64,000 nt of DNA from Megalonaias nervosa (Eukaryota; Mollusca; Bivalvia; Unionida; Unionidae). The stretch spans positions 1 through 64,000 of the forward strand of contig JAECUM010009315.1 in assembly GCA_016617855.1 (NCBI GenBank), read 5' to 3'. This document shows, piece by piece, positions 24,194 through 43,180 of this stretch; position 1 is the first letter of the stretch; each line of letters opens with the position of its first letter. The notes beneath the pieces are model-generated. The model made no database searches and was not told where the DNA came from. It worked only from the letters and a program-made list of their open reading frames with translations. Position numbers and translations under genes: made by a program.

Positions 24194-24206
24194 TATTATT
24201 ATATAA

Positions 24207-24710: not shown

Positions 24711-24751
24711 CTCTTCAAAACAATAAATTTTTACTGTATATATTTCGACTG

Positions 24752-25189: not shown

Positions 25190-25259
25190 TATATAATAAA
25201 TATCTCTTTAAAATAAGTTTTAACTTTGGTCTTTATTTAAAATATCAAAAATAAACAGC

Positions 25260-27183: not shown

Positions 27184-28666
27184 CTACGAGCGTATGTACA
27201 AATTAATATATAACGTCTCTCCACGAAGGTCAATGATGTTTCCAGACTGGTCTGTGAGTTTGAAATTTATTCTTGACAATAATGGATTATGTACACGCAA
27301 GTATATTTGATTAATTGGCTCAGATACAGTCAGCCACCCGGGCGGCGCTTGAGGTGTGAATGTATGTAATATATATCCTTGCTGGGCCTGGTTAGACTTT
27401 GAAAGATCTGCTTGATAACTACTATCAACTGCATCGCATGTTAGATTGACCGCGATCGTTGATGTTATATTAACAATATCAGGTGAGATATGACGGCCTC
27501 CACCGTATGGATCGTTGTTATGTTTAAGAATAACCGGTGGTGGGGCTATTTTTATCCACGCTGCATGTATTTTAGGGAAATATTCATCAATGACATCGTT
27601 GAGTTGTTTTTTTATTTCAGCGTTATTTAAATCTGGTATTATAAATGTTTGTAAATCTTTTTCTGTTATTTTGTAATGATCAAGAAATAATTGCTTAAGT
27701 TCTGGAGATGTGTAAATATTTCTATCGACTTTAGTCGCAACGGTTATAATACTTCGATTGGCGATGTATAAATCAAATAGGATCCTATTTAAATGTTTTA
27801 TTGACTCGATTATCTGATTTTTTACACCATCGTCATAATGTTGAGAGAATGAAATAAATAAACTTCTTAAATCATTAAGTTTTTTTATCGTATTCAGGCT
27901 TAAGAAGATCTAAAAAAAATTTTAAAAATTTTTCATCAACAATATCTCTCTCAATCTTCGCCCTGGCGTCTCTGATAACATTAAATGCTGATCTAGTTAT
28001 CTTAGGGATCCTTTGGTCGTCGAAACCAGTAAAGTAATATTCATCGTTGCTTGTATCAAATTCAAATGCTATATAAAACCATGGATTTTTATTTCGATAT
28101 TCTGGACGTTTTATAAATCTTTTTTCCGTTGTGAGAAATTCATTTTTGGTTGGTTCTAGAATTCCATTATAAACAGGAGGAACATCAGGCCATCCTAACA
28201 CTGATCTAATGGAACTTTGATAAATATCTACAGAATAATCAGGGGAATTTATTTCAATCACCGCTGATAATGTTGGTTCGTAAACAGTAATTGCTATTTT
28301 TGATTCTTTTCCTGTAATGGATTTAATTCTGCGTTGGAATTCATCGTTGATCTGTTCTATTTGATAACTGCCAGTTGGAATACTAACTACTTGCCAATCA
28401 GGAGTTCCATCAGGTTTATTCTTATTTGCGAATACTAATGAATTATTTGGCTGTAGTCCACCAAATGGTTTTGATCTAATATTAGGCCAGCTATAATAAA
28501 CCCGTAACTGTGCTAATGCTATTTCTTTTGCATGAATTGCGGTTGGAAAGTTAACGCTAAACTCAGGATTAGTCGAACTTAATGAAATCATTGTAGTTTT
28601 TGACGGTGTTGTATTAGTGACGATCTGTTGAAGTAATTCTCGCGACGCTGCTGAAGACTCAGTCAT
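27184..28666 (-). pseudogene. Putative minor capsid/penton-like protein, split by a frameshift
   Basis: The ATG at 28666 opens 263 codons that stop at 27875. A second open frame of about 230 codons continues without a gap from a run of seven A (T at 27880-27886) to TAG at 27186-27184. Removing one A from the run would join them into about 495 residues. The N-terminal part has SLSSTNPEFSVNFP and a Ser-Trp-Pro-Asn segment. The C-terminal end has INFKLTDQSGN and IDLRGETLYINLYIRS, a beta-rich ending I associate with minor capsid or penton-like proteins of Polinton-type elements. That assignment is from memory. The start overlaps the stop of the upstream gene by 8 bp. Confidence 0.6.
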
Positions 28667-29168
28667 TATTATTATTGTTATTATTTAATTCGCCTTGATT
28701 ATTGTCAGCGATTCTGAATGCTTCATCATAGGTTTTCATTATCGTTGCGAACTCCTCATCAGATATTTTACCATCGCTGAGATACAAGGAAATATATGAC
28801 GATAATTTAGAATACGCCGCTGCTGCTGTGTGTAATTTTATTATATACTCGTGCAATTTATCATTTGTACATGTAACTATCTTCTTAGCGATAATACTGA
28901 GAATGCCTGCGCATGTTGTTGCCGTTGAAACGACGATTGTTACAACTGCAGGCGCTGTCATTGTTATCGTCGATAATAATAATCCGGATCCAGCAACAAC
29001 AGCGGAAACTGAGTAAACGATTATATCAATGACAACCATACGTCTGCGATATATTTTTACTTTTACTGTATAATCGTCGATGATATTTTTTAGTTTGGTT
29101 TGACACTCACATACTTGAGCGTATCTGTGACGTTGAACGTCGATAAGTGACTCAGTCACTTGATTCAT
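28659..29168 (-). CDS. Small membrane protein
   Basis: 169 residues with its ATG at 29168. Two hydrophobic segments lie in the middle (VVIDIIVYSVSAVVAGSGLL and a second one rich in Ala/Val/Thr ending in GILSIIAKK). The N-terminus is charged and the end is an Asn run before TGA. The stop codon overlaps the start of the next gene (ATGACTGA). Position in the capsid block suggests a virion or membrane-interaction protein; the family is unknown. Confidence 0.65.
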   Translation of the reverse strand: MNQVTESLIDVQRHRYAQVCECQTKLKNIIDDYTVKVKIYRRRMVVIDIIVYSVSAVVAGSGLLLSTITMTAPAVVTIVVSTATTCAGILSIIAKKIVTCTNDKLHEYIIKLHTAAAAYSKLSSYISLYLSDGKISDEEFATIMKTYDEAFRIADNNQGELNNNNNNND

Positions 29169-29189
29169 TATACTAACAACGTCATTTAA

Positions 29190-29540
29190 TTAAGTTTCAG
29201 CTACGAATTCTAGGCACCACCAGTAAGGTCTCGGAGGTATTTCCGTTGATGTTAACGTAAACGTTTCTTTGATGTTCTTGGTTAGCATCACCAATAGAGG
29301 ATTATGATATACATTCGATGATAATGAAGTTGCCTCAGTAATTTCCGAACCGTACAAGGATAGCCTGTATAACCCAGTTACTTCTGCGGTATGTTCGAGA
29401 GTGTTATTTTGCGGTGTCCATGTTGTTGATCCTGATGCTACTGTGTACACGATATTTTTAATTTGTCCGTGTGGAATTTTAATCAGATTAGTTTTTTGAA
29501 CAATATTAGGTATTCCACTAATAATATCATTGAGTTTCAT
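29190..29540 (-). CDS. Unknown small beta-rich protein of the capsid block
   Basis: 116 residues, ATG at 29540, intact. Alternating hydrophobic residues and Gly/Thr/Ser-rich turns suggest beta structure, and it ends in RPYWWCLEFVAET. It lies between the membrane protein and the fibre-like protein with short gaps, so it probably belongs to the same late unit. No family was recognised. Confidence 0.6.
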   Translation of the reverse strand: MKLNDIISGIPNIVQKTNLIKIPHGQIKNIVYTVASGSTTWTPQNNTLEHTAEVTGLYRLSLYGSEITEATSLSSNVYHNPLLVMLTKNIKETFTLTSTEIPPRPYWWCLEFVAET

Positions 29541-29562
29541 GTTAATGTCGGATAGTTTTATG

Positions 29563-30255
29563 TCAACGGTTGGTTGTTCCCCCCCAAAAATCTTTAATGG
29601 TTTTGTTTATGTTTCTACGAAAATTTAAAAACGTTTCCACATGTCTAGTAAAAGTACCATTGAGTGTAGTCATTTCGTTATTGATTGTTTTTAGCGAAGT
29701 TGTCATAGGAATGTTGCTATCGTCTACATATTTCTTCGTTGCAGCGTCAAAATCAAATTCTGGTGTTCTAAGATTATTAATACCATTATTATTCATGTTG
29801 AGAAATGCACGCATTATACCACCGTTGACTAACACGTACTTAGATTCTTGATCATCGACATATTTTTTTGTTGCGGCGTCTGTATCTACGGTTGGATTTC
29901 CAAGGTCTATAATTTTATTTCGATTCATAATAATGCTATCCGTGAATGAATCACCAGCTCGCTTGATAAAATCGTTAACTGACTTACCAGAATCTTGTAT
30001 TTTACCTTGATCGGAGAAAATAACGATATTATCAACAACTGCGGTAGGAATTCGTATGAGTACATCTGGCAGTTGTATGTTACTCGTTTTTAATCGTCCT
30101 TGTTTATCCTGAAAAACAACGACTTCATTTTGATCCACACTTGTAATATTTAATAAATCGTCAATCTCATTTCTGAGCTGATCAAGAGTTGCGTATTTAG
30201 ATAAATCACCTTGCTGCTGAGCTTTGCGAGAAGATCTTCCGTAAATATCTACCAT
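29563..30255 (-). CDS. Fibre-like protein with phage tail-fibre repeats
   Basis: 230 residues from the ATG at 30255 (an upstream TTG overlaps the protease stop and is less likely). Two copies of DAATKKYVDD occur, preceded by INN or IIDLGNPT-type segments (about residues 128-148 and 172-192). This repeat is typical of trimeric bacteriophage tail-fibre shafts. The N-terminal third is charged and the C-terminal end is short, without an obvious receptor knob. The expected role is a virion spike or fibre. The presence of such a repeat in an animal-genome element is notable. Confidence 0.7.
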   Translation of the reverse strand: MVDIYGRSSRKAQQQGDLSKYATLDQLRNEIDDLLNITSVDQNEVVVFQDKQGRLKTSNIQLPDVLIRIPTAVVDNIVIFSDQGKIQDSGKSVNDFIKRAGDSFTDSIIMNRNKIIDLGNPTVDTDAATKKYVDDQESKYVLVNGGIMRAFLNMNNNGINNLRTPEFDFDAATKKYVDDSNIPMTTSLKTINNEMTTLNGTFTRHVETFLNFRRNINKTIKDFWGGTTNR

Positions 30256-30263
30256 TATATTTA

Positions 30264-30674
30264 TCAATGTCTGTTTAAATGTGACAATGTGGTATATTCA
30301 TGCACGACTTTATGAGGTGGTTTTGTTGATTTTGATATAGCATCAAGTACATTAAGTACTTCACGACCACATATTGGTGGATCAGTTAATGTTTGTGTTG
30401 GTAACGTTGAATACCAAATTGGAGCAATATTATTGCTGACATAATGAAGAAATTCCTTTGGTGGCGCTAATCCATATGAATCGAAATAAATAATTCCACG
30501 TGGATCAATTGCATATCCAACCCAATGGGTGCCTGGTCCAGAGTTTTTATCGAGATTAATAATACCAGTTTCAATATTGTTCGGTTGTTTTGGTAACTGA
30601 TCGCGCATAAAAACACCTCTGAAGTTTTTTATTTTTAGTTTTTTAGCAGCATCGAGTAAATCAAAATTGGACAT
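30264..30674 (-). CDS. Adenain-like cysteine protease
   Basis: 136 residues from the ATG at 30674. An upstream ATG at 30725 would add 17 residues overlapping the core peptide gene. The catalytic His lies in GTHWVGYAI, the acidic partner in IYFDSYGLAPP and the likely nucleophile in PPICGREVLNVL. This is the order and spacing of adenovirus-type maturation proteases, which cut capsid precursors. It is shorter than adenovirus protease (about 200 residues) but close to the size in Polinton-like elements. All three catalytic residues are present. The gene lies between the pX-like peptide and the fibre-like gene. Confidence 0.85.
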   Translation of the reverse strand: MSNFDLLDAAKKLKIKNFRGVFMRDQLPKQPNNIETGIINLDKNSGPGTHWVGYAIDPRGIIYFDSYGLAPPKEFLHYVSNNIAPIWYSTLPTQTLTDPPICGREVLNVLDAISKSTKPPHKVVHEYTTLSHLNRH

Positions 30675-30682
30675 AGGCGATA

Positions 30683-31153
30683 TCAGTAAACTGTTCCTGG
30701 AAGTCTTAGGCCCTTTCCGTACCATGAATATGGGGTCCCTGGTAATCTTAGACCTCTTCCCTTTTTTTTTGATGTTCTTCTTATTCCCTGTCCGGTTGCT
30801 TTCTTTAATGCCATTCCAGCAGCGGTTCCAACAGCGCCTAATACAGCTGCTTTTGCAACAGCTGGGGCTGCAGCGGCTATTAATGCTGGTATAGCTGCGA
30901 GAAGTGGAAATATACCACCCGTCTTAGCGATGTCTTTGATAGCTCCCGCAGAAAGATTAAGTTTTACACCTTTATTTGATTTTTTGGCTTCATTGAAGTT
31001 TCTGAATTGACGCTCGGTCAACGATAATTTATTTGAACCGCTCATCTGTTCTTTTTTTAGCGATATTTTTATTCCACAGTTATTTTTTGATGCTGATTGT
31101 AGCCTTTTGATCTGACCAGGAGTCAGGGCAACACTAACGTGATTATATGACAT
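30683..31153 (-). CDS. pX-like core/minor capsid precursor
   Basis: 156 residues. The N-terminal half contains two LTxxQ(I/F)xxxxxA(S/K)KxNxG(I/V)K-like repeats. A hydrophobic Gly/Ala/Pro helix follows (GGIFPLLAAIPALIAA), then a basic tail with KKKGRGLRLPG and a repeated GLRLPGT. This order (repeat region, Gly-Gly-hydrophobic, basic end) matches the small core protein of adenovirus and Polinton/adintovirus elements, a substrate of the protease next door. It binds DNA or membranes in the particle (family knowledge). The frame is intact. Confidence 0.75.
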   Translation of the reverse strand: MSYNHVSVALTPGQIKRLQSASKNNCGIKISLKKEQMSGSNKLSLTERQFRNFNEAKKSNKGVKLNLSAGAIKDIAKTGGIFPLLAAIPALIAAAAPAVAKAAVLGAVGTAAGMALKKATGQGIRRTSKKKGRGLRLPGTPYSWYGKGLRLPGTVY

Positions 31154-31183
31154 TATAATTATAATAGATGATCTAATTACGTG

Positions 31184-32573
31184 TTAAATATTTTCTACTG
31201 GGGCATCAACGACTCTCATTCGTCCACCAGCACCTTCAAGTAACATTGATTTATCGCTGAGAATAACAGCTATTGCTCTATAATCAGCAACAGCTCCAAC
31301 ATCTCTATTAACACGAGCTCGAAAAAGTATATCAACTACTGATTGTCTGGTTAAATCTAAGTGTTCGAGCGAAAAGTAATAAATCGGATATAAGGTTGTA
31401 AAATCCAATTGTGATATTTGTAAACCAGCATCAGTGTTTTGATCACGCCCCATAAACGTCATAAGACGGTGATATGCACGTGCTACATGATTTTGATCGA
31501 AATTCAGTAATATATCCTCAGATGGTTCTTGATGTCCATTTATCCTTAAAGAAACTTCAGAAACACCAAGTTTGTCAAATATCATAATACTTTCATCTTG
31601 ATCGTCTACTCGTGCAGCATTTTGAAGCGCAATAAATATATGTCTTGGATCAGAAACACCTTGTTGTGATGCTATTTGCCATGTAAATAAACCATTAATA
31701 TTACTTTGGGTAGCATCTGTGGTCACTGTCAACCATGATAACATTGATTTACCGCCTTGACTCATAAAAGATAGCAACCGGTCTTCTTCAGATATTGATG
31801 GAGCCATCACTGGCATCCACAATGAAAGTTTTGTTAGTACTACTTTACCAGCATCAACTGCACCAGGTCGCCAGATTGCATCATTATCAGTGCCTTTTCG
31901 TACAAGTACAACTGTGTGCTTAACTCCGAAAATGACTTTTCTGACATTTCTACAGAATCCAAAGATATGTGACAGTGGAATTGCACATGAAAATGCTCTC
32001 CTATCACCTTTTAACATTGATCTACGTACTGCAAATCCTAAGTTAAAATTTGCATTCATTGATATTACTGCAGTGGTATCTGCAGCTCCTCCTGCATCTC
32101 TCACATTACCAATAGGTACGTTTCTACTTTCTGAAAAATCAGTTGTATCCTTTGCAAACATCATTGACGGGCCAGCCGATCTTGAATAATCGTCGCTGTA
32201 TCTTGCTAAACCCAATATTGTTGTAGCAACATCAACGTCTTTCTGAATAGATTCAATATTTTTTTCCGTCAGTCATGTACGTAGCGCTATCAAATAACGC
32301 CATAATACCATTATTAACAAAACCAACAATAACATTAGCTCCACATGCTACTGTTGTCACAGGAGCAGCGTTATTTAAAATCTCACCTTCTACCTCAATA
32401 AACGCCTCAGCGGGTAAGAAATATCTGCTTGTATCTTGAACCTGAAGCTCAATCCTTCCACGCTGATCTGGAATTCGAGCGTCATAAGAATAATATTGAT
32501 AATCACGCACAGACTCATCCTTGAGTACTGGTGCATCCATGTCGAACGCTGGATCAGATATACGTTTGAACAT
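31184..32573 (-). pseudogene. Major capsid protein (hexon-like), split by one frameshift
   Basis: The ATG at 32573 opens a 106-codon frame that stops at 32253. A second frame of about 355 codons continues to 31184. The switch lies at a run of seven A (T at 32259-32265) and one base less would join the halves, giving about 460 residues. Features include a FDMDAP and YYSYDARIPD N-terminus, a HIFGFCRNVRKVIFG strand, FTTLYPIYYF, and a C-terminal VISMN/AVILSDK-type beta end (AVILSDKSMLLEG). Position, size and context fit a double jelly-roll capsid protein; the identity is inferred from context and remembered patterns rather than a search. It forms the virion shell. Confidence 0.65.
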
Positions 32574-32587
32574 CTTTATTATAATTA

Positions 32588-33001
32588 TTATTGTCTAAAA
32601 CGAAGATCACTTCCTGCTATCAGACTAGCGGTTATATTTTTTTCTTTTTCTGATAATGGTACATCAGCCAACTCTGCTAGTTTTTGATTAGCAGCTTGAT
32701 TTATTATTTTACTAATATTTGCAGGCATTACTTCAGTGCTAGGTAATTTTACAGGTTGAGGTTTTCGTCGTATTAATCGTGCTAGTCTATCTTTGATTGC
32801 TGAGAATGCTTTACTAGCAACATCACCAACAGCACCAATACCTTTTTCACGAATAACATCAATAGCTTTCATGCCCAGTCGCTTTGCAATCGGTATTGCT
32901 TTTGGGGCTATCCTTCTAAACAGACCCTGAAAAATATCGCCTAGTCCATCTCCGTAGGTTGTTTTGTATACTGGTAATCGTGAATTTATTACCCTGACCA
33001 T
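32588..33001 (-). CDS. pVI-like minor capsid protein
   Basis: 137 residues, intact. It begins with a beta segment and then a Gly-rich amphipathic helix region (GDGLGDIFQGLFRRIAPKA). Alternating Ile/Ala/Lys helices follow, with a second Gly motif (EKGIGAVGDVASKAF) and a basic part (RLIRRKPQP). In Polinton/adintovirus-type elements such a protein lies next to the major capsid gene and is a membrane-lytic or cementing protein, cleaved by the protease. The function here is inferred from that pattern and position. Confidence 0.6.
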   Translation of the reverse strand: MVRVINSRLPVYKTTYGDGLGDIFQGLFRRIAPKAIPIAKRLGMKAIDVIREKGIGAVGDVASKAFSAIKDRLARLIRRKPQPVKLPSTEVMPANISKIINQAANQKLAELADVPLSEKEKNITASLIAGSDLRFRQ

Positions 33002-33078
33002 GGTTGGTCCACGTTAAGTACTATGTACGATCATTTTATTATAATAACTGTATTTAATTATATACTCAATCCAGTGAC

Positions 33079-34045
33079 TTAGTTACTATGGTAGTCATCG
33101 GCGATTTCATTAATGAGGGACCGATATACATTAATATCCATAATTCCACCTGTAAATAATCGTTGACAAATATCAGCTGCTTCATTAATGATTTCTGGGG
33201 AATTATTACCAGCTCGTTTTCCTCCAATGAGGATTTCTAGTCGATCAACATCAGCAAGAATGTTATTGGGACAAGTAATAAGGCCACTTCCTAAACCACT
33301 TCCAGTTGCACCAGGATCTTGATATTCTTCCTCTGTTATTTTGACTGGTTGTTATTGTAGTTCTTCTTGTTGTCTTTGTAGTCGTGGTAATGGTTGCTGT
33401 GGTGATGGTAATTTGAGTTGTTGTGATGATATTGGTGAAAATTCAAATTGTCGTGGTATTCGTTGTGATGCTTTTTTACTTGGTTTCGATGATGTTTTCG
33501 GTGATTCTGGATAATCATGAAGTGATTGCTCAAGTGGTTTTGGAGATTGTTGCCTTTTACGTTTTTTTCCTTCCATTTCTTCTTGTTTTCTTAATTGATT
33601 TAAATCATAGATTTCATTAACATAATCTTGATATAATGGATCATCAGTTTTAACTCTTTCAACATCCATACTTATGCGATATAATGCCTTTTGCCATTGT
33701 TCACGGGTTTTAATATCCTTAGCGTATTTATGTTTCATTAATTTACTTCTTTGAGCAAAACTATCCACAGCAAACTCAGCTAATTGTTGTAGGTTTTTAA
33801 TGTTATTCTTGATTATTTTAACAGTATCTTCATTAAATTTATTTAACAGTTCAGTATTACTTCTTGTAGAACTCTTTTGTTTAGGGGCTGGTGCTTCAGT
33901 GTCTTCAGGCTGAGCAGCAGCAGCTGGTTGAGCTGCTTGAATATGACCAGCAATATCAACAGGCAATGTTTCAAGAGCTTTCTGTGTTGCCTCAGTTGCT
34001 GTAACAATTTTCTTTGTTGGTTCGACAATCGGTTTAAATAACAGT
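33079..34045 (-). pseudogene. Truncated gene at the right end of element 1, one in-frame stop
   Basis: A single frame enters from the border with element 2 at 34045 without an ATG and runs to TAA at 33081-33079, about 320 codons. It is interrupted once by TAA at 33354-33352 inside a Gln-rich stretch (CAA TAA CAA, so a C-to-T change is likely). The middle has a helical domain (NKFNEDTVKIIKNNIKNLQQ, then REQWQKALYRISMDVER) and a basic linker. The region after the stop has GLITCPNNIL and a helix to the end. The lack of any start codon at the border means the N-terminus was lost or never present at this junction. The function is unknown; it may be a virion protein. Confidence 0.65.
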
Positions 34046-34283
34046 GGCGGAACAGTGTTGCATGTGGCTGACCTGAATACGCGTTACTCTAGGGACAATA
34101 GAGACATAGAGACAAACATAGAGACGTGGTTAGAGACAGGGTTAGAGACAGAGACATAGACATATTACACAAACATAGATTTATGAACATAAATCTATCA
34201 CTCAAAAAATCGACTAAAATTTTTTTTAAGCAAGAGAGAATAGATATCTTTTTGAGGCAATGGAGTGGCCCTGAAAAGGGCCG
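34046..34283 (-). repeat. Left terminal inverted repeat of element 2
   Basis: It matches the right end at 42052-42506 in reverse complement once the nested MITE is removed. Shared stretches include ctctaaccacgtctctatg, ctattgtccctagagtaacg and gttcataaatctat. It includes a tandem-like run of agagac motifs and, at its inner edge, a histone-type stem-loop. Confidence 0.85.
34247..34282 (-). terminator. Histone-type 3' processing signal (stem-loop plus HDE-like)
   Basis: On the minus strand, GGCCCTTTTCAGGGCC (34282-34267) is a perfect six-base-pair stem with a TTTC loop, matching the metazoan replication-dependent histone stem-loop. It is preceded by CCAAC and followed by ACTCC. Twelve bases further on lies CAAAAAGA (34254-34247), like a histone downstream element for U7 snRNP. 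It lies downstream of the gene at 34444-34704. Confidence 0.75.
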
Positions 34284-34443
34284 TTGGGTTTCTTCTTCTT
34301 CTTCTCCTTCTTCTTCTAATTTCTCTCTTCTCTTCTTCTCCTCCACCAACTTCTCATCTTCTCCATCACATTTAATGTCTTCTTCTTCCTCTTTTTCCCA
34401 TTCTCCTCCTTCTCCTCTTCCTCCTCTTGTTTCCTTTTCTCAT

Positions 34444-34704
34444 TCACCTCTTCTTTTTCAATCTTTTCATTCCATCTTCTAATTTGCTCTTTTCCTCTTT
34501 GTCCTCCTTTTCCTGTTTTGTCATGTCTCTCAATATTTCTTTCCCTTTCTTCAAATTATTAATCTCCATTTTCGATCTGTGTGGGCTATAAGTCCCATAC
34601 TCTATTCTGATGAGCATCTCTTCCACCATCTCTATGGTATCTACCACCTCTTGCAATTTCATGATCTTGTCCATGTGGTTTGAAGCCATTTTTTTTAATT
34701 CCAT
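34444..34704 (-). CDS. Small coiled-coil protein a (paralogue family)
   Basis: 86 residues from the ATG at 34704. An N-terminal helix with heptad-like Leu/Ile/Met spacing (MDKIMKLQEVVDTIEMVEEM) is followed by a Lys/Glu-rich tail ending in KRLKKKR. An alternative frame continues as low-complexity Glu/Lys coding towards 34337, so the present stop may reflect a frameshift. The promoter block at about 34715-34770 matches those of the two neighbours at 35.8 and 36.7 kb, and a histone-type stem-loop lies 160 bp downstream. I do not recognise a family. The basic tail hints at nuclear or DNA binding. Confidence 0.55.
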   Translation of the reverse strand: MELKKMASNHMDKIMKLQEVVDTIEMVEEMLIRIEYGTYSPHRSKMEINNLKKGKEILRDMTKQEKEDKEEKSKLEDGMKRLKKKR

Positions 34705-34714
34705 GTTGAATGGC

Positions 34715-34770
34715 GCGAATGACGAACGCTTTAATTTACATGTCTTAAGCACGGACGTGAAGGAAAATAT
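34715..34770 (-). promoter_or_regulatory. Shared promoter block, copy a (diverged)
   Basis: Read on the minus strand: TTTTCCTTCACGTCCG, then TGCTTAAG, then an AT-rich segment and AAAGCGTTCG. It aligns with copies b and c but the TATAAA is degraded (GTAAATTAAAG). Confidence 0.6.
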
Positions 34771-34979
34771 CTCCTCTCATCAACTAACCATATCACATAC
34801 CAAGCAATATCATAGTAATTTTTGAGTGCTAACCTACTAAACCCACTATACTTTCCATCAATACATAGTGGAGAAGAATTTTTTTATTTACAAATCACAC
34901 CATTACCTACAATCACATCAGTAAAGGAGTCAGTGTTTAGAATGACAGTACTTCACTTTCACAAAAATTCTTTAATGCA

Positions 34980-35180
34980 GGGACAAGGGTTTTGTTAGGG
35001 GGAAAGACACACACACACATAGACACACACACACGTACGCGTGCACACATACACACACACATCAGCAAAGGAGTGTTTATAGTCACTATTTAACTTTCAC
35101 ACAAAACAAACATTCATGAGTGTAGGGACAAGAGGTTTGTTAAGGGAAAAAAGACATACACACACAAACACTAATATTTG
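34980..35180. other. Spacer with CA-rich repeats
   Basis: Short (CA)n runs and two copies of a segment with ggacaaggg/ggacaagag and ttgttaaggg or ttgttaggggg. No gene. Similar CA-rich spacers follow genes b and c, so the spacer itself seems to have been duplicated with the genes. Confidence 0.5.
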
Positions 35181-35192
35181 TTGGCAACTTGA

Positions 35193-35801
35193 TCAGTCTC
35201 TCTTATCTAGAGATCTGGTTAGACCTGAAAAGGGATGTTTTCTCGAACTCCAAACGCACCTGCTTAATGCCTGCACCTTACAGGCCGGGGTACCACACAC
35301 ACATCTCCTACTCCAATCTTGCTCCCAATGCACAGTTGTGGTTGGGAGCGCGGAGGCCACTTGAGTGGCTTCAGATCCCCAATCTTCAGTTTGTGGGATT
35401 CTGAAGTCTCTCTCCCTTACGATCCTTTGTCCTGCCTGCGGATGTTGTAGGGCTCGCTGTGGCTCCCATTCTTGCCTCTGCCTCTCCAGTATTTCTTCCC
35501 TATTTTCTATCTGAGGAGACTGGAGGTCTTGGTGGTGGTGGTAGTGCCTGTGGCTTTTGTAGATTGGGGTGGTGTCGTCACCATGGGCTTGACTTCGCTG
35601 GTCTGTCTCAGGACGAGGTGAGACAGGATCCTTTCTTTCTTTCTTTTCCTTTTCCTCTTCTTTCTTCTTTTATTTCCTCCTCCTCTTCTTCCTAGCACTT
35701 TTCTGGATTGCCTCCATGGCTAGCTCGTCCAGTAGACGCCTGGCATACTCAAGGTGCATTTGGAGTTCCAACAGTTTGCTGATTCTGCTCATCTTGAACA
35801 T
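35193..35801 (-). pseudogene. Small coiled-coil protein b, premature stop
   Basis: The ATG at 35801 starts a 43-residue frame with a helix (KLLELQMHLEYARRLLDEL) and a basic end (KKRRRK), stopped by TAA at 35672-35670. The same frame is then open for 158 more codons to TGA at 35195-35193. That part starts with a Lys/Glu tract, then a His-rich and Gln/Arg-rich part, so the stop is probably a late mutation in a protein of about 200 residues. The helix resembles that of protein c (KLNEAHVHLHRVRQNL). A TATAAA box lies at 35845-35850, about 44 bp upstream. A decayed histone-type stem-loop at 35221-35236 lies near the end. Confidence 0.55.
35205..35236 (-). terminator. Decayed histone-type 3' signal
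   Basis: On the minus strand, ATCCCTTTTCAGGTCT (35236-35221) keeps the CCCTTTTCAGG core but two base pairs of the stem are lost. The downstream sequence has ATAAGAGA about 14 bases later. Taken alone it would be weak; it is included because of the four better copies in the same element. Confidence 0.35.
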
Positions 35802-35829
35802 TAACGAGTGAAAGTTGGGGTAGCAAGAC

Positions 35830-35885
35830 TGGCGAACGCTGCGCTTTATATTCCTCAAGCGCGGACGTGAAGGAAAACACCCGTT
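35830..35885 (-). promoter_or_regulatory. Shared promoter block, copy b
   Basis: Minus strand: TTTTCCTTCACGTCCG, then CGCTTGAGGAATATAAAGCG, then CAGCGTTCGCCAGTC. The TATAAA is at 35850-35845. Copies a and c have the same order and spacing. Confidence 0.7.
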
Positions 35886-36069
35886 TACACAAAAACTAAC
35901 AATACCCATATCATAACCAAACACATTGAACGCGCGGACCTAAAAGAAACACTTACCCCCTCTTTTTAACCTACAAACACACTTTATTATCACTCATACA
36001 TATAAAAAACACTCAATATCTTACAAAGCCAGGGAAAAGAAGTTTATAGACACACTTGTATTCCATTAC

Positions 36070-36074
<5 letters not shown>

Positions 36075-36127
<53 letters not shown>
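36075..36127. repeat. (CA)n microsatellite
   Basis: About 26 CA units in the spacer between small genes b and c of element 2. Confidence 0.95.
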
Positions 36128-36129
<2 letters not shown>

Positions 36130-36229
36130 ACAAGTCAGGGAAACGAAGTGTTTATAGGCACGCTTCTATTTTTTTAACCTACCGACACACAGACAGACAA
36201 ATTTTGGCAATAGAGTCGTATCTCTTTAC

Positions 36230-36259
36230 TAGATTTTTGGGGTAGCCCTAAAAAGGGCT
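36230..36259 (-). terminator. Histone-type 3' processing signal
   Basis: On the minus strand, AGCCCTTTTTAGGGCT (36259-36244) is a perfect six-base-pair stem with a four-base loop, followed by ACCCC. A TAAAGAGA element lies about 15 bases downstream. It starts 27 bp after the stop of gene c, the usual spacing for histone mRNAs. Confidence 0.65.
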
Positions 36260-36285
36260 GTTTTGTTTGGGGTTGTTGCAATCTC

Positions 36286-36654
36286 TTATCGTCTAAGATT
36301 GCGACCCCGTCTGGCTGCAGGCTTTCTCATGGGATACCGTCTGCTTCTACGGAAGGAGAAGGAGAACTCCTTAGTGTCTACACGACAGCCCACAAAGCCT
36401 CTGTCTGGCTCCTGGGGTTGTTGCTGTTGTTGTTGTTCCTGTGGCTGCTCTCTCTGCTGTTTCTGAAGTCTGTTCTTCTCGGTCCATTCTTCTTGTTCCT
36501 TTTTTATTTCTTCTTTAAAGACCTCTTCTATCAGGTCTTGTGCAACTTTCAGCATCCTGACATTTTCAGTCTCTTCAGGCTTGGGTATCAGGTTTTGCCT
36601 GACACGATGCAAATGGACGTGTGCTTCATTCAGCTTTGCTAGTCTTGTAGACAT
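36286..36654 (-). CDS. Small coiled-coil/basic protein c (paralogue family)
   Basis: 122 residues from the ATG at 36654 (no ATG exists further upstream in frame, only a TTG). The N-terminal helix (MSTRLAKLNEAHVHLHRVRQ) is followed by a second helix rich in Glu/Lys, a Gln-rich stretch with QEQQQQQQPQE, and a very basic end (RRSRRYPMRKPAARRGR). The TATAAA at 36712-36707 lies 53 bp upstream and a histone-type stem-loop lies 27 bp downstream, so the whole transcription unit is visible and unbroken. The C-terminal Arg/Lys cluster suggests nucleic acid or chromatin binding. No family was recognised. Confidence 0.65.
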   Translation of the reverse strand: MSTRLAKLNEAHVHLHRVRQNLIPKPEETENVRMLKVAQDLIEEVFKEEIKKEQEEWTEKNRLQKQQREQPQEQQQQQQPQEPDRGFVGCRVDTKEFSFSFRRSRRYPMRKPAARRGRNLRR

Positions 36655-36694
36655 CTTTACGAGTTGACGAGTCAAGAGTGGATGGTCAGACTGG

Positions 36695-36745
36695 AGACCG
36701 CTGAGCTTTATATGGCTCAAGCGCGGACGCGATAGAAAACATCCC
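36695..36745 (-). promoter_or_regulatory. Shared promoter block, copy c
   Basis: Minus strand: TTTTCTATCGCGTCCG, then CGCTTGAGCCATATAAAGCT, then CAGCGGTCTCCAGTC. It aligns with copy b over about 45 bp with few changes. Confidence 0.7.
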
Positions 36746-36854
36746 TACGATTTTTGGGTAGGGACTCTATAGCTCATCGCATGGTGAGGGACAGAGAGAA
36801 GTCAAAGAGCATAGATATTGATAAAAAATTTTAAAACAAACCACCAACGATAAT

Positions 36855-36875
36855 TTTTTGATAACAGTTTTATTC
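36855..36875 (-). terminator. Possible poly(A) signal of the PolB/protease unit
   Basis: AATAAA on the minus strand (tttatt at about 36869), roughly 90 bp past the protease stop. If used, the PolB/protease unit would have ordinary polyadenylation, unlike the small genes. Confidence 0.4.
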
Positions 36876-36957
36876 AACCAATAATTAACCAACAAATAAT
36901 ATAACATCAACACATTTTTTTTCAAATAACACATTTTTGACAAGGTTGACAACGTTG

Positions 36958-37425
36958 TCAAGTCAAGTTAGACTTCCACTGATGGAGGTCATTTGGCCAT
37001 TGATGTACACTACGTTTCATAGCTAAAGACAAGTGATATCCATAATGGTCACAAAACCATCTATCTACTTTTTCATCGTTTCTAGACGAGTCACGATCAA
37101 AATAAGTCACTAAATGTTCCAAGGGATATCCAAGACTGCGTTGATGAAGAAAATACACACACTATTGTCCACACACCATGGAATCTGTGCCTTGTAATTT
37201 CACATTATTAAAGCGAGTCGTCTGGGAATTTCTTCTCATAAAGTCGATGATGTCGTCTTCCAAAGGCGGTAATCCATACGAACCAAAATACTCCACACGG
37301 TCATCGTCGAGAAAGTAGACGGCTACCTAGAGGGTTTCTGGGAGATGACTGTCGTCCGTGTTGATGACAAGGTTGGTCTTGGCTGCGCGTTTTGGCACAG
37401 GTACGGTACAAGGGAAACATCATCG
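36958..37425 (-). pseudogene. Dead adenain-type protease
   Basis: The frame reads a VINTDDSHLP segment, then VAVYFLDDDRVEYFGSYGLPP, a helix, then KLQGTDSMVCGQ and CVYFLHQRSLG. This is the classic order of adenovirus/Polinton cysteine proteases. It is inactive: the position of the catalytic His and following Trp now reads Leu-stop (CTC TAG at about 37329), and a second TAG follows the CGQ next to the nucleophile Cys. Both stops are one base from a sense codon. It follows PolB directly, with no room for the polymerase palm domain. Confidence 0.75.
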
Positions 37426-40073
37426 GCGTGGTACAGCAAACAGGTGGCATTCGTACATCCTCCGTACAAACTGTTCCGCGGGTTCAAAGGGTCCACCAAC
37501 TTCTAACTTTCCACGATGAGCTTAAATTCGGGATCGATTTTCAAACTGTGATCGTACTCGTGTTCCCACATTTCCACCACTTGGTATCCTTGTTGTTCTA
37601 CCTTTAAGAGTCGCTGACAAGTGGCCTTGTACAAGTCTTCTATGGTATGTTGTAAAACTGATTTGGGGTGTAACGTTGAGGGTAACAGATGGGACATCCG
37701 TGAAATAAGCAACCGTTAAACTCGTACACGATCTTTGGGTTTTCTAAGCCCCAGCCATCCACTGAATACGTTCCGATGGTCTTTCCACCTCCTCCGTTTC
37801 GGGCGTGATGGATCCATTTCTCTTCCTTGTCACACAAATAATATAGCCAGCGTAGGGCTTTGACCGAGTACTGACGTTTGACAAAATTGGTCGTTTGAGG
37901 GCGGATGACAGCCAGGGTCTTCTCGGGCATGAAGCGTTTGCGGTACACTAAGGAACACGCTTTGGCAATGGTGCAGGCTTTTTTCAAAGGATCGATCCCT
38001 CCGTGCTCCATGAACAATTCTCAAAATTTTTCACAGCAACGCCGTAAAATGTCCACGTCGGAACGGCAATACTTTAAGTTTCTTGTTGTTCGGTGCGCAT
38101 GTTGTCGGGGTCGTAGTAGTCATCATCAGGCAAATGGGATAGAACGACGTGTTGATTGGCTTCAGTATTGAAAAAGTGCGGAAAAATAACCATTGACCAT
38201 TTCTGTCATTCCAAATGTTTTAGGCATTCGACTCAAGTAACTCATGGAATCCTTAAACTGCACTTGTCCCACTTGCATGGAAATGAGTTTGGCTCCGTTC
38301 AAAGTCACTTTAGGACGTTCGGTGCTTTGTTCCGTATAGTATTTGAGAAGAAACTGTCCATCGTACCCGGAGATATTGTGAGCTATCACCGTGGCATAGC
38401 GATGACAATCTCCGTAACGTTCGATGTCCTCTTGGCTCCATGTTTCGTTGATAGGGTCTAACATCCATTGGGCGAAATCGGTCAGCCTGTTAGGTCCCCG
38501 AAAGATTTTTTCACGTCCTCCAGGTATCTTCCTACAGTGAGGGCAATGACAAAAGATCGGTTCTTGAATGCACTTCTCGCACGCTCGATGAGCCACGCAG
38601 AAATTAGGAATGTGAATGTCGGTCTCTTGCATGCATTCCAAGTCAAAAAAGATGAAATTGCCTTTCATTTTGTGGTCATCTTCTTCTTCCTCCTGTTGGG
38701 GTTAATATTTTTGAAAGTAGCATTCGTGTTCCAAGTCCATGATTTGGTGACAAATGTGACATCGTTTCTTACCTGGACGTAGGTGTACGTTGGCACTATT
38801 GGTACGGTTGACTTGTCCACAAGCTGAACAACATTTCAGGAGTTGACAAGCACTTTCTGCTGTGAACCTTACGTCTTCAGATGTTGTTGGTAACAGAATG
38901 GGCTGACAAAAGTGCGCTGACAAGCTGAGCAATGCACTAGTTATTGTCCTTCGTCAAGACAGGGTTTAGAGGTCAAACATCCTGGACATTTCGATCCACA
39001 ATGCTTGTGTTGCTTTCGAGTGTTATAGCCATAGTCGCATTTCTCACAGTAATAACTGTATCCCAGGAATCCAGTGATACTGGTAATGGTATCGAAATGT
39101 TTATCATGATGATTGACGTGAATGCATTATCCGTCATTGAAATTTTTGCCTCGAAACAACAGAGGTCCGCGGACTTCTTGAGGGTGTACTTTCATGGTGT
39201 AGCGTGGAGCTAAGACGTCTTGCAATTTTTGCATTTCAGGAATGCCACAGGCAGTGTCTTTGGATAGCCCCGCTTGCTGTAACAGGAGTTCTGCTTCTCT
39301 TTGTTGTTTGGCTCGGTTAGACTTTCGAATAGTTTGCCAGGCTCTTTTCCGTTCTGTCATGTCGTTCATGTCGGCATACATTCGTCCTACGACGATGGCA
39401 CGGTCTAAACACACCTTGTTTTGAGAGTTATTAATTTGGACAAGGCTACGCTTGATGCTGTGAAGGTTGTCCACCAATAATTTTTTTTTGTGTTTTCCGG
39501 TCTCTTTGGGAAGAGAAACGTAGGCCATATACAGTGTCACTTTTCCATCGGTGATGTGAAACTTGTCATTGGATTGCTGTATGTGTTGAATCTTGTCGAT
39601 GGCTTTGGAAGGTGTCAGTTATGATGGCCTGCTAAACTCGATCCAAACGGGGACTTCAGACTGTCGTGATAAATGGAAAGTCTCAAGCGATCGTCTTCGT
39701 TGGCTCGACACTGCCGTTTCAATGTGGTTAACAAAGAATCCCACAAATCGGTGATGAACCCCTCTGCTTTCTCTAGCGGTACGTCGGACTTGAAATCTTT
39801 AAACTTCATCGTGTACGTGTAGGCCGTGGTTCTAAATTTTCTAGAGGAGCCTTTATCCGTCTTTCGAATGTGGTAGTAGTTTTCAGTGGTTACTAGGGGT
39901 GGACTTTGTTTTGACGTAGACTCTCTGGGTCTGGATTCTGGCTCACTCTTGTCATCTTCAAAATCGCTGGAATGGATTTGAGCCAAGACTTCAGCTACTG
40001 TGCGAGGCGATAAGTCACGTTTCTGCCTCTTACTTTCTTCTCCTTTCTTTACGAAATGATGCGATCGTTTCAT
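37400..40073 (-). pseudogene. Protein-primed DNA polymerase B, decayed and lacking the palm domain
   Basis: Pieces in several frames run from the ATG at 40073: an N-terminal part with YTYTMKFKDF and RLRLSIYHDSL, a segment starting TLYMAYVSLP (about 39540), a Cys/His-rich part (CEKCDYGYN, CGSKCPGC), the Exo I motif FFDLECMQ (about 38650) and the Exo II motif AHNISGYDGQF (about 38380). It ends at LYGGCTNATCLLY (about 37450). In Polinton-type polymerases this last motif precedes the catalytic palm, but here protease sequence follows at once. The DxxSLYP and DTDS motifs are absent. Numerous stops and frameshifts confirm loss of function. It would have replicated linear DNA from a terminal protein. 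Confidence 0.8.
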
Positions 40074-40144
40074 CTTGATTGCAAGAGGCCAAATGACTAC
40101 ATTTTAAATGCCATGGTCCCCTATATATCAATGTAAGGTCAGTG

Positions 40145-40162
40145 TCTTCCCTATATAAAGGG
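40145..40162 (+). promoter_or_regulatory. TATA box of the zinc-knuckle gene
   Basis: CCCTATATAAAGGG centred near 40155, about 55 bp before the ATG at 40213. A second similar segment (CCCTATATATC) at 40118 read on the other strand may serve PolB, so this 140 bp region looks like a divergent promoter. Confidence 0.6.
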
Positions 40163-40212
40163 TTAGTGTCTTCCCTCAAAGTATTCATTTCACTCTCAAT
40201 CTTAGCAGAAAG

Positions 40213-40680
40213 ATGGAAGAGCCAACACAGATCGAACTTCTGATCAGAGCTTTGTGAGGTGTCATACGAAGGTTTTCTTCCGAGAAGCCGATGGACTACT
40301 CCCCCTTCTTTCGAGATAAAGGTCAAGACACATGCTATATCTGTCAGAAGAAAGGGCATTGGTCTTCTAAATGTCCACAAAGTAAGACAAGCATCAAAAG
40401 AGACAAAGGTCAAGATACCTGTTATCATTGTCAAAAGAAAGGACATTGGTCTTCCGACTGCCCTAAGAAACAACAGGAGCAGGAGGAAGAGAGGGGATCC
40501 GAACAGGAAGAAGAGGTACCCTCCGAAAAGGAAGAACCCAGACACGTTAAGAAAAAGAAGAAAAGAAGACGAGAAGAAAGTGAGGAAGAAGAGGAAAAAC
40601 CTGTGACAGTGAAGAAATTCAAAAAACAAAAGAAGAGAGTGAAGAGACAAAGAAGAAGAAAAATGAACTGTTTAAAGTGA
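40213..40680 (+). pseudogene. Double CCHC zinc-knuckle protein with a premature TGA
   Basis: The ATG at 40213 opens a frame that meets TGA at 40255-40257 and then stays open to 40680. A second ATG at 40291 would give an intact 129-residue protein. Two CCHC knuckles (CYICQKKGHWSSKC and CYHCQKKGHWSSDC) are followed by a Glu-rich stretch and a long Lys/Arg tail (KKKKKRRREE, KKQKKRVKRQRRRK). Such knuckles bind single-stranded nucleic acid, as in retroviral nucleocapsid or cellular CNBP proteins. The repeated sentence around each knuckle (DKGQDTCY) shows an internal duplication. It could be a packaging or replication protein, which is inference. It is convergent with the gene at 40921-41564. Confidence 0.7.
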
Positions 40681-40845
40681 TGTGTTGTGAAATTGGATTG
40701 TAATTTGTACCAAAATATACCAGAAAGAAAAACGTATGTGTCTCTTGGTTTTGATCTTTTTATAATAAGGAGCTACACTCACGCACTCACACACGTCCAT
40801 CATGGAGAAAAAAGAGAATTGGCTTTTGGCAAACATTGAGTAGTC

Positions 40846-40881
40846 TCTTTTCGAAAGAGGTGGGTGGCCCTGAAAAAGACC
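40846..40881 (-). terminator. Histone-type 3' processing signal
   Basis: On the minus strand, GGTCTTTTTCAGGGCC (40881-40866) forms a six-pair stem with two G-T pairs and a TTTC loop, followed by ACCCA exactly as in many histone mRNAs. CGAAAAGA begins 12 bases further on (40853-40846), the same distance as in the right-end copy. It lies about 40 bp after the last stop of the minus-strand gene at 40921-41564. Confidence 0.68.
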
Positions 40882-40920
40882 GATGGGTGTTTGTTTTTTG
40901 TTTATTAAAAAAACAATAAC

Positions 40921-41564
40921 TCAGGAACGGGAAGTAATGAGCTTTAACTGCCTTGTCCCTTTGCCCCGGCCAAGACTTACATCTGGACTTGCTATTGTCG
41001 ATGATTTGGTAGAAATCACTAGCGTTGGTATCTCATGCGTGGTGGGAGTGTGGACGGGATTGGAGTGTTTGGCTCGGGAAGGTCTTTTTCTCTTGGGTCG
41101 TATTAAAGAAGTCTGATACATTTCTTTTCAGACTCCTTAACTCTGCCAAAATGTCTAAGAGTAACGTCACCGGTTGACTTTCACTGTCCTCCTTCTCTCC
41201 TAAACCTTTGTTTCTTCTCTGCTTCTTCTTCTTCCTGTCGTCTTCTTCTTGCCTCATCTTCTTCTCGCTGTTGCTGTTGAATGAGAAAGGCTTGTTATGC
41301 TTCTTTCTGCTGTTGCAAAAATTTCTCCATTTCTTCTATCTGTCTCTGTTTGAAATCCTCGACGTACAGTAAGGAAGGAAAAAGCGGAGAAGGTACTAGT
41401 ACCGGAACAAATTCTTGTGAAGAGAGAAAATCCGCTAAATCCCAATTAAAATCATTCTCCTCTGGAAGTAGGATTGTGGTTGTTTTAGTAGCCGCTACTA
41501 TACCATCACTCCTCGTCTCCACAGCCGTTGCACCGCATTTCATCGTCTTCTTAATTTCCGTCAT
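40921..41564 (-). pseudogene. Unknown acidic/coiled-coil protein, broken by stop and frameshifts
   Basis: The ATG at 41564 starts 89 residues with a FNWDLADFLSSQEFVP segment and a Gln/Glu helix. TAA at 41297-41295 interrupts, and the same frame continues as a Glu/Arg-rich helix (REEDEARRRRQEEE). Another frame then carries LLLDILAELRSLKRNVSDFF to a stop at 41033, and a third frame reaches 40921. Together they suggest a protein of about 200 residues. The DWxLxxFL-like acidic patch resembles an activation or interaction motif, but this is only an impression. It is divergent from the gene at 41791 and ends before a histone-type stem-loop. Confidence 0.5.
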
Positions 41565-41621
41565 GTTCTAACTCTGTTGCATTGATTCACTGCTCACAGA
41601 CGCTAGCGGACCTACATAGGA

Positions 41622-41635
41622 ATGTGACGTCACAT
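41622..41635. promoter_or_regulatory. CRE/ATF-type palindrome in a divergent promoter
   Basis: ATGTGACGTCACAT is a perfect 14 bp palindrome containing TGACGTCA, the consensus site for CREB/ATF factors. It lies 58 bp upstream of the minus gene start (41564) and 156 bp upstream of the plus gene start (41791). Confidence 0.6.
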
Positions 41636-41739
41636 GCAGCTCTCTTCGGATTGGAAGACAGATTCCGCACTATGACTGAATTTTGTAACGCGTGTTAGGA
41701 TTGGTGAAAGAACTCAATCCGTTTCGATCCGCTCTTCCA

Positions 41740-41748
41740 CTATAAATA
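41740..41748 (+). promoter_or_regulatory. TATA box of the right-end gene
   Basis: CTATAAATA at 41740-41748, about 43 bp before the ATG at 41791, followed by a pyrimidine-rich leader. This spacing fits a short 5' leader. Confidence 0.65.
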
Positions 41749-41790
41749 CCTTCGGTTCACTTCATTCCATTCACCTCTTCTCGTCACAAA

Positions 41791-42009
41791 ATGTGGACTA
41801 ACGTAGAATTGTCTACTCTCCTATCGTCGATGCTATTCAACCCGGACTATCCAATGGATGTCAGATCATCAAGGGCTATTACCCAGATCACCGAGACGGT
41901 CCTTTGGAAACGAAGAATCTATGTGGAGAGACAAGGCTGTCTGAAGAGAGTCTTAATCTACGGTCCAGAAGTCAGACGAAGTTTGAGGAAGAGAAGAAGA
42001 TCCATGTGA
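41791..42009 (+). CDS. Small basic protein of the right end
   Basis: 72 residues, intact, ATG at 41791. It has an N-terminal hydrophobic/acidic part (MWTNVELSTLLSSMLFNPDY), a middle helix (SSRAITQITETVLWKR) and a basic end (RRSLRKRRRSM). Size and layout resemble a histone-fold-like or DNA-binding peptide, but no family is recognised. TATA, short leader, compact frame and a histone-type stem-loop 43 bp after the stop form a complete unit that looks like a replication-dependent histone gene in architecture. It is transcribed outward towards the right end of the element. Confidence 0.62.
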   Translation: MWTNVELSTLLSSMLFNPDYPMDVRSSRAITQITETVLWKRRIYVERQGCLKRVLIYGPEVRRSLRKRRRSM

Positions 42010-42052
42010 TGCCCTCTATGTTAACTGAATGGTGTCAAGAAAATAAAACCAA

Positions 42053-42088
42053 GGCCCTTTTCAAGGCCACTCCATTTCCTCGAAAAGA
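42053..42088 (+). terminator. Histone-type 3' processing signal at the right end
   Basis: GGCCCTTTTCAAGGCC (42053-42068) keeps the TTTTCA core and outer pairs, with one mismatch in the stem. ACTCC follows, and CGAAAAGA lies 12 bases downstream (42081-42088). It is the inverted-repeat counterpart of 34247-34282, so each element end carries one. Confidence 0.65.
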
Positions 42089-42221
42089 TATCTATTCTCA
42101 GTTGCCTAAAAAAATTTTTAGTCAGTTTTTTGTGTGAGTGTTATATGTTCATAAATCTATCTTTGTGTAATATGTCTATGTCTCTATGTCTTTAAGTCTG
42201 TCTCTAACCACGTCTCTATGT

Positions 42222-42434
42222 CAGTGGCGTAGCTTGGGGAGGGCGGGGGGGGGGGAACAGTTGTCCCCGGGCGCCATGTGCCAGGGGCGCCAATATGAGG
42301 AAAATACAACTATTCGTTATCTCAGATGCACTCGAAGGGGGCGCCAGGTTTATGTTTTGTCCCCGGGCGCTAAGTAAGGGGGCGCCAAGTTTATATTTTG
42401 TCCCCGGGCGCTAAGTACCCTCGCTACGCCACTG
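42222..42434. mobile_element. hAT-type MITE nested in the right terminal repeat
   Basis: Terminal inverted repeats CAGTGGCGTAGC and CTACGCCACTG, flanked by an 8 bp duplication with one mismatch (ctctatgt at 42214-42221 and ctctatga at 42435-42442). The inside holds repeated GGGCGC blocks (ccccgggcgc three times). It carries no gene. It inserted after element 2 was in place or while its repeat was circulating. Confidence 0.88.
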
Positions 42435-42506
42435 CTCTATGACTATGTTTCTATTGTCCCTAGAGTAACGCGTATTCACGTCAGCCACTTTCAACACTGT
42501 TCCGCC

Positions 42507-43180
42507 CGATTGAGGTCAGCCTCTAGCAACATTTTTACCATTGTATCCCCAGTGTCCAGTAACATGGCGTCACCCCTGTTAAAATGCATTTTGTCCCTAT
42601 AGTGCTAGGACCCTGTCTGTAATGCTAATTCCCATTGTCCCTATAAATCTTGTCCCCATAGGGCCGTGTCACTTTTTAACATGGAAGTCCTATTGTCCCC
42701 CTATCGCCCCCAATCACTACTTGAGACTGATCACGAGGAACCTGTCAACTAAATAAGAGGTTGTCTCTTGATTCTTTAGCTTGAAAACAAAGTAGAAGTA
42801 ACTTACTCAAGTTTTTATGTTGGACGAAACCAGGAAATAAATAGTTACCACCGAATGAGAAACCGACAGAGACGTTTACCTTTCGAACCACTGTTATCCA
42901 AAGGCAACTAACACATTTAAGATGAAGGAAAAATACATGCAACACTAATTAACCACTTGATAAGCAAGTAGATAAAGGTGACTATTATTGACAGTTGTGT
43001 TTCGCAGCTGTGTAATTTCCTGAAGGCATGTTGTTTATCAGATAGAATAGTTATCCAAATGTTTCATTGCAGTAGAAAGAAAATATGCTCGAGCATTTTG
43101 CAAATAACAATGGTGAGTGAGACTGGGCGGTAATTACTGCCCATTGCGCGATCACCTAAGATATATAAGAAACCGAATAG
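42507..43180. other. Right flank of element 2
   Basis: No gene. Between 42540 and 42700 a TTGTCCC-like motif recurs about four times (ttgtccctatag, ttgtccctataa, ttgtccccatag, ttgtccccctat), echoing the ctattgtccctagag of the terminal repeat. It may be a remnant of an older related end. Confidence 0.4.

Follow-up and report, generated by a model that had tools for sequence, protein, structure and literature searches.

This locus raises the question of why the small genes of a virus-like element should end in signals resembling those that form the 3' ends of histone mRNAs. The element occupies positions ~34046-42506 of a 64,000-nucleotide stretch of the bivalve Megalonaias nervosa (contig JAECUM010009315.1, positions 1 to 64,000; this whole stretch is referred to here as the window), and it is an internally deleted copy of an abundant virus-like family of the Maverick/Polinton type. 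We named its small genes S1 to S5 after their stem-loops. In histone genes, SLBP binds a hairpin, the U7 small nuclear ribonucleoprotein (snRNP) pairs with a purine box, and CPSF73 cuts between them; the resulting mRNA has no poly(A) tail and follows SLBP, a protein abundant in S phase and in egg cells. The evidence below suggests that several of the small element genes very probably use SLBP/U7 histone-type 3' ends.

An initial annotation of this DNA had described five stem-loops, each in the sense of a nearby gene, and a sequence scan found all five where they had been placed. S1, S2, and S3 lie to the left of the polymerase gene, all on the minus strand, and S4 (minus) and S5 (plus) form a divergent pair on its right (Table 1). 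The Rfam model RF00032 (Histone3), with a curated gathering score of 34, matched four of the five sites, with S1 alone above that score and S3, S4, and S5 seen at a relaxed threshold. The site at 35221 (S2), described as decayed, was not reported at the relaxed threshold and by eye retains 4 of its 6 pairs, in agreement with that description. Four stems had been called good, which is true of three with six standard pairs, and the fourth, at 42053, has 5 of 6 in the window copy. The purine-rich box that had been seen 3' of the stem is there as well, of the AAAAGA type at S1, S4, and S5 and TAAAGA at S3, beginning 13-15 nt past the stem. Gaps between stop codon and stem are short, as had been noted, and the values given as 27-43 are corrected here to 26 (S3), 39 (S4), and 43 (S5). 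The extent proposed for the element, 34247-42088, was in the right place and slightly too narrow.

Across 34044-42508 (8465 bases), six pairs together with 14 or more of the 16 consensus letters occur in 6 readings, counting antisense readings of a hairpin as well; 60 Markov-chain control sequences gave a mean of 0.28. At a looser threshold, the corresponding figures are 11 and 4.5. Histone-like sites with a 6-bp stem, a 4-nt loop, and conserved flanks are present in the window, and one of them scores above the curated value. The stem-loops at 34267 (S1) and 42053 (S5) are not independent of each other since both sit in the arms of the terminal inverted repeat, which are 88% complementary between 34144-34282 and 42053-42191. 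The position of two of the five stem-loops inside terminal repeats would also fit hairpins that act at the DNA level in replication, packaging, or excision and whose histone likeness is incidental. We consider this explanation extremely improbable because S2, S3, and S4 lie outside the terminal repeats; the loop letters, both flanks, and a purine box on one side are conserved in the sense of the gene, on whichever strand it lies; and a host H2A gene has the same stem and loop.

From 28 first-look candidates in the host genome (2.19 Gb), we obtained 11 histone-domain matches, and four of these were read; the main histone array of the host may be absent from the assembly or collapsed in it, or the first look may have overlooked it. 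One H2A frame, apparently full-length, ends in CCCAAC GGCCCTTTTCAGGGCC ACCAAATAGCCA GAAAAGATG and matches RF00032 at 37.8 bits. Its stem and loop are identical to those of most S5 copies, its 5' flank to that of many S4 copies, and its box, GAAAAGAT, to that of many S5 copies. The H2A box starts 12 nt past the stem, and the element boxes mostly at 13. Two H2B-like frames have weaker RF00032 matches (30.7 and 24.5 bits), and the fourth match, a fragment, had none in the 701 bases read. The identity of stem, loop, and box in the host H2A, together with the conservation of these features in copies chosen without reference to them, supports the use of the SLBP/U7 pathway by the element.

Conservation was assessed in copies sampled without regard to the stem-loop, by protein for S3, by family B DNA polymerase (PolB) for S4, and as second sites in loci that had been chosen for another site. 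The S3 sample consisted of 20 of at least 149 other protein matches, about every seventh listed, read just past the stop codon. Six pairs were present in the expected frame in 15 of the 20, and four copies had lost one or more pairs; in one copy (L154), the stem was kept and the loop shortened, as judged by eye. The purine box was found in 16/20 and an Rfam Histone3 match (E<=0.1) in 16/20, at 20.4-32.4 bits. For S4, we took 20 of at least 149 polymerase matches and read the DNA at the distance where the site was predicted. A homologous stretch was present in 14 and absent from 6, and 13 of the 14 span the stem, with L118 stopping short of it at a contig end. Six pairs are retained in 9 of these 13, the AAAAGA box occurs in 13/14, and Histone3 matches were obtained in 11/20 (23.9-28.3 bits). 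Second sites had six pairs in 11 of 13 cases and five pairs in two (hand count). At S2, six pairs are intact in 3 of 4 homologous copies, and so the decay seen in the window is not general. The initial annotation had named related elements lacking the stem-loops as the outcome that would speak against it. Among related elements in the host genome this was not the outcome, as most of the S3, S4, and S5 copies sampled without the signal retain the stem and its loop, together with the flanks and the purine box. In the 9 kb to the left of two other copies, L012 and L018 (the latter broken), neither the scan nor Rfam found a stem-loop.

These data also bear on whether the stem-loops could be functionless relics of captured histone 3' ends. 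Spread by duplication within the element is plausible since S1, S2, and S3 have in common a promoter-like repeat of 57 nt (D6) and, by eye, resemble tandem paralogues. Relics, however, would not be expected to behave as the S3 copies do, in which the spacer between stop codon and stem differs in length and letters and the hairpin stays. Wobble changes and some compensatory changes in an S4 alignment likewise argue against relics, as does the S5 product, in which no likeness to host H2A or H2B was detected, albeit with a thin profile. Taken together, these observations make a relic origin without function highly improbable.

Signal-chosen loci and the window contribute 27 of the 40 sequences (32 distinct rows) in the S4 alignment. 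Of its stem cells, 95.8% are paired, and sliding the partner lowers this to 63.0% or less. Pair 1 is G-C in older copies and A-U in a young set, and pair 3 occurs as U-G, C-G, or U-A. The shuffle control of covariation was mixed: the percentage paired was reached by 4/500 shuffles, the number of cells changed on both sides by 10/500, and the covariation score by 23/500, with two further measures given below. Stems also differ between genes, with AGCCC/GGGCT in most S3 copies read and GGCCC/GGGCC in most S5 copies.

Downstream of the stem, an AAAAGA-type box (five related patterns) is present in 85 of 89 distinct sites. It starts 13 nt past the stem in 67 sites, 14 in 11, 15 in 6, and 12 in 1, and the same patterns occur in upstream control stretches in 9/89 in the sense orientation and 1/89 in antisense. 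The flanks at these 89 sites are mostly CAAA or CAAC before the stem and ACTC, ACCC, or ACTT after it. The element sites thus have a purine-rich downstream element at a near-fixed distance, like that of the host histone gene (one host H2A compared).

An alternative that retains the histone likeness is that these mRNAs are mainly polyadenylated and that the hairpin merely recruits SLBP as a regulator or provides a back-up end. The window copy fits this explanation in having AATAAA 19 nt (S4) and 5 nt (S5) upstream of the stem, and some animal histone genes are reported to produce ends of both kinds (PMC3661734). Yet in the 50 nt preceding the stem, AATAAA or ATTAAA is found in just 4 of 27 S4 sequences and 5 of 29 S5 sequences, window included, and neither site thus conserves a poly(A) signal close upstream of its stem. 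The downstream box, which serves processing, is by contrast kept at near-fixed spacing. Predominant polyadenylation is consequently improbable in our estimation.

Rfam matches elsewhere in the host genome illustrate the variety of these signals rather than their conservation since the signal itself was used to find them. A scan gave at least 75 RF00032 matches, of which 68 were examined, with the window's own match outside that list. The element accounts for 64 of the 68: 60 by the flanking DNA of S1, S4, or S5 (hand-counted union) and 4 by protein frames recognized by eye. Four other Histone3 matches (L024, L039, L042, and L058) resemble no known gene end of the element at the DNA level, and the stretches read around them contain no histone frame. 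Five contigs from the IMG/VR database that contain part of the motif were rejected as relatives, being phage-like by their open reading frames (ORFs) and having neither the stem nor an Rfam match.

Several points weigh against histone-type processing of the element genes. The window copy is partly decayed, the evidence for the signal comes from DNA sequence, and processing is deduced from what is known of histone genes. Two measures of covariation are readily matched by shuffling, the count of pairs with changes on both sides in 136/500 and that of pair types in 430/500. For the box, most of the 89 sites are in loci that the Rfam model had selected, and the box falls within the 46 positions of that model. 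The unselected S3 and S4 samples are for this reason the fairer test; Rfam scores in those samples all fall below 34 (best 32.4 and 28.3, respectively). The conservation evidence comes from copies within one host genome, and these are not independent because young copies are nearly identical. A U7 snRNA was not found in the host by Rfam, with control genomes giving no match either, and a search with one U7 pattern gave 11 matches against 12 in a backward control, none with a convincing hairpin. Finally, the zinc-knuckle product of the element is basic too (isoelectric point, pI, of 9.6), its gene has no stem-loop, and no poly(A) signal lies within ~220 nt downstream of its stop codon in the window copy, so that the division into two types of gene end is not a clean one.

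With these points considered, we still favor SLBP/U7 processing, and from the likeness to histone genes we infer cleavage, tail-less mRNA, and S-phase coupling of the element genes. Small single-ORF genes near both ends of the element carry complete host-type histone 3' ends, consisting of a CCAAM flank, a 6-bp stem, a 4-nt loop, an AC-type flank, and a GAAAAGA-type box ~13 nt past the stem. In the mechanism that we propose, SLBP would bind the loop of the element mRNA, U7 snRNP would pair with its box, and CPSF73 would cut between hairpin and box to leave an mRNA without a poly(A) tail. Such mRNAs would be expected to accumulate in S phase or wherever SLBP is high, for example in oocytes and early embryos, and small structural or DNA-binding proteins would then be made in step with DNA replication. 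The polymerase and protease genes would end without a histone-type signal. We consider it likely that the element sorts its genes into expression classes by 3' end in this way, with polymerase and protease lacking the signal and small basic proteins carrying host-matched histone-type ends, to be made with histones in S phase or in germ cells and embryos rich in SLBP. That the aim is an S-phase or germ-line supply of small basic proteins seems somewhat more probable than otherwise.

The products of the small genes are basic, with pI values of 10.1-11.1 for the S1, S3, S4, and S5 proteins (pieces or wholes) compared with 6.6 for an exonuclease piece of the polymerase. The S5 product has 76-77 residues in 13 other copies. 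From charge and size, one might guess that these proteins bind or pack DNA. None of the products searched (S5, S3, and a piece of S1) was found to be a histone: S5 and the S1 piece had no Pfam match at E<=0.05, and S3 had sub-cutoff Pfam matches only. We rejected S5 as a diverged histone since hhalign gave probabilities of 0.2% against host H2A and 0.1% against host H2B, with a thin profile (number of effective sequences, Neff, ~1). An AlphaFold model of S5 was poor (predicted local distance difference test score, pLDDT, of 63). Between S4 and S5, the divergent promoter boxes and the palindrome TGACGTCA are kept in most of 15 aligned sequences, with 11 loci that gave short or gapped matches left out of the alignment. 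In three other copies (L003, L014, and L025), a small extra ORF (MDLF.NLKDSWY...) lies upstream of an S1-type end.

Assignment of the element to the Maverick/Polinton type draws on other copies as well as on the window. In the window copy, the polymerase frames pass from a linker into a protease piece with no palm part seen, which reveals the internal deletion, and the polymerase piece has a sub-cutoff Pfam match only; the polymerase of another copy, L074, matches PF03175 at 8.5e-43. Six ORFs of L074 were compared with Pfam, giving one chromodomain fragment near the polymerase, the sole integrase-related trace seen there, and five ORFs without a match; no match to a double jelly-roll capsid, penton, or packaging ATPase was found among the six. 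The polymerase fragment and the S3 protein each have at least 150 scored matches in the 2.19-Gb host genome, window included, and 14 of the listed polymerase matches have open frames of 1361-1367 residues. A comparison of 30 polymerase loci revealed a set of 16 in which nearest neighbors are 98.8-99.7% identical, and the family has therefore been recently active. The starts of PolB and S3 are 13.0-14.0 kb apart in the same orientation in four contigs, from which we estimate that longer copies are ~20 kb. A protein database contained two relatives of S5, on contigs of 523 and 1455 bases, and three of the PolB fragment. Relatives of PolB numbered 23, with identities up to 47%, one named from Holothuria and one from Nymphon. 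A search of IMG/VR for polymerase relatives found none. The right terminal repeat is interrupted by an insertion of ~220 bp (42222-42442) with matching ends, CAGTGGCGTAGC ... GCTACGCCACTG, that resembles a small non-autonomous DNA transposon.

Table 1. Features of the virus-like element, in window coordinates (HDE, histone downstream element; I1 and I2, inverted repeats; D6, promoter-like repeat family).
Feature	Position	Strand	Details
Virus-like element	~34046-42506		Inverted-repeat comparison
Left terminal inverted repeat	34046..34282		Holds S1 stem-loop; inverted repeats I1, I2
S1 HDE-like purine box	34247..34253	-	AAAAAGA, 13 nt past stem
S1 stem-loop	34267..34282	-	GGCCCTTTTCAGGGCC; RF00032 37.5 bits (34287-34242)
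S1 gene	34444..34704	-	Lysine-rich; ORF ends well short of stem-loop in window copy
Promoter-like repeat D6	34716..34772	-	Upstream of S1 gene
S2 stem-loop	35221..35236	-	Decayed in window
S2 gene fragment	35670..35909	-	S1/S3 paralogue by eye
Promoter-like repeat D6	35826..35882	-	Upstream of S2 gene
S3 HDE-like box	36223..36228	-	TAAAGA, 15 nt past stem
S3 stem-loop	36244..36259	-	AGCCCTTTTTAGGGCT; RF00032 29.4 bits (36264-36219), below 34
S3 gene	36286..36654	-	122 residues, pI 10.2
Promoter-like repeat D6	36688..36744	-	Upstream of S3 gene
AATAAA	36869..36874	-	3' of protease piece; no stem-loop at that place
Adenain-like protease pieces	36961..37326	-	One internal stop; by eye only
Family B DNA polymerase pieces	37640..40073	-	Palm part not found in window copy
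Zinc-knuckle (CCHC) gene	40291..40680	+	PF00098 1.7e-13; no stem-loop
S4 HDE-like box	40846..40852	-	GAAAAGA, 13 nt past stem
S4 stem-loop	40866..40881	-	GGTCTTTTTCAGGGCC; RF00032 20.0 bits (40886-40841), below 34
S4 gene	40921..41564	-	Frame broken in window copy; basic C-terminal part
Divergent S4/S5 promoter region	41565..41790		ATTGG (CCAAT) boxes, TATA-like boxes, TGACGTCA palindrome
S5 gene	41791..42009	+	72 residues, pI 11.1 in window
S5 stem-loop	42053..42068	+	GGCCCTTTTCAAGGCC, one mismatch in window copy; RF00032 24.5 bits (42048-42093), below 34
Right terminal inverted repeat	42053..42506		Holds S5 stem-loop; small insertion at ~42222-42442; inverted repeats I1, I2
S5 HDE-like box	42082..42088	+	GAAAAGA, 13 nt past stem

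A separate Polinton lies beside the element at 20633-33738, with a double jelly-roll capsid (PF21738) and, by eye, an adenain-like protease and polymerase pieces; antisense within it, an ORF at 24207-24710 (+) looks by eye like an HNH homing endonuclease. Elsewhere in the window, tRNA-type Rfam matches at 51741-51813, 52320-52392, and 58747-58819 are followed by a shared tail and are therefore probably tRNA-derived short interspersed nuclear elements. Reverse-transcriptase-like ORFs at 18925-19947 and 48174-49678 belong by eye to non-LTR (long terminal repeat) retrotransposons, and an ORF at 8603-8923 is built of tandem peptide repeats with a 14-residue unit.

Divergent gene pairs with CCAAT and TATA-like boxes are typical of histone genes, and the S4/S5 pair has this arrangement. 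The element further resembles animal replication-dependent histone genes in its stem-loop with a TTTC loop, CCAAM flank, AC-type 3' flank, and GAAAAGA-type box at ~12-15 nt, and in its short gap between stop codon and stem and its small basic products. Unlike histone genes, its genes are not recognized as histones and sit in a mobile virus-like element. With Maverick/Polinton elements and adintoviruses it shares a family B polymerase, a protease that is adenain-like by eye, terminal inverted repeats, a chromodomain fragment (in another copy), and an inferred length of ~20 kb; it differs from them in having histone-type 3' ends on several genes. In the neighboring Polinton (20.6-33.7 kb), RF00032 gives no match at the gathering score, and no six-pair, 14-letter site is present. 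Borrowing of histones by viruses is known at the level of protein, as passages of a report on adomaviruses, DNA viruses of animals that encode histone-like "Histoid" proteins, describe (PMC11071296); the terms "stem-loop" and "polyaden-" do not occur in its main text. Adomaviruses thus borrow a protein, in contrast to the RNA 3'-end signal carried by this element. Among open-access titles and the openings of abstracts, we found no report of a virus or mobile element with histone-type 3' ends. The type of element and the signal are each known, and their union on several genes appears to be new.

One practical consequence is that histone annotation based on this stem-loop can be swamped, as in the host genome, where 64 of 68 examined Rfam matches are the element. 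If the proposed processing is correct, these genes would add a non-histone class to the replication-dependent mRNAs of animals and would be a case of viral exploitation of the U7/SLBP pathway. An element with at least 150 matches per gene and the whole signal would offer a natural way to assay what a gene gains from SLBP/U7 processing, and it would give a concrete reason why a Maverick might tie its protein supply to the S phase or the germ line of its host.

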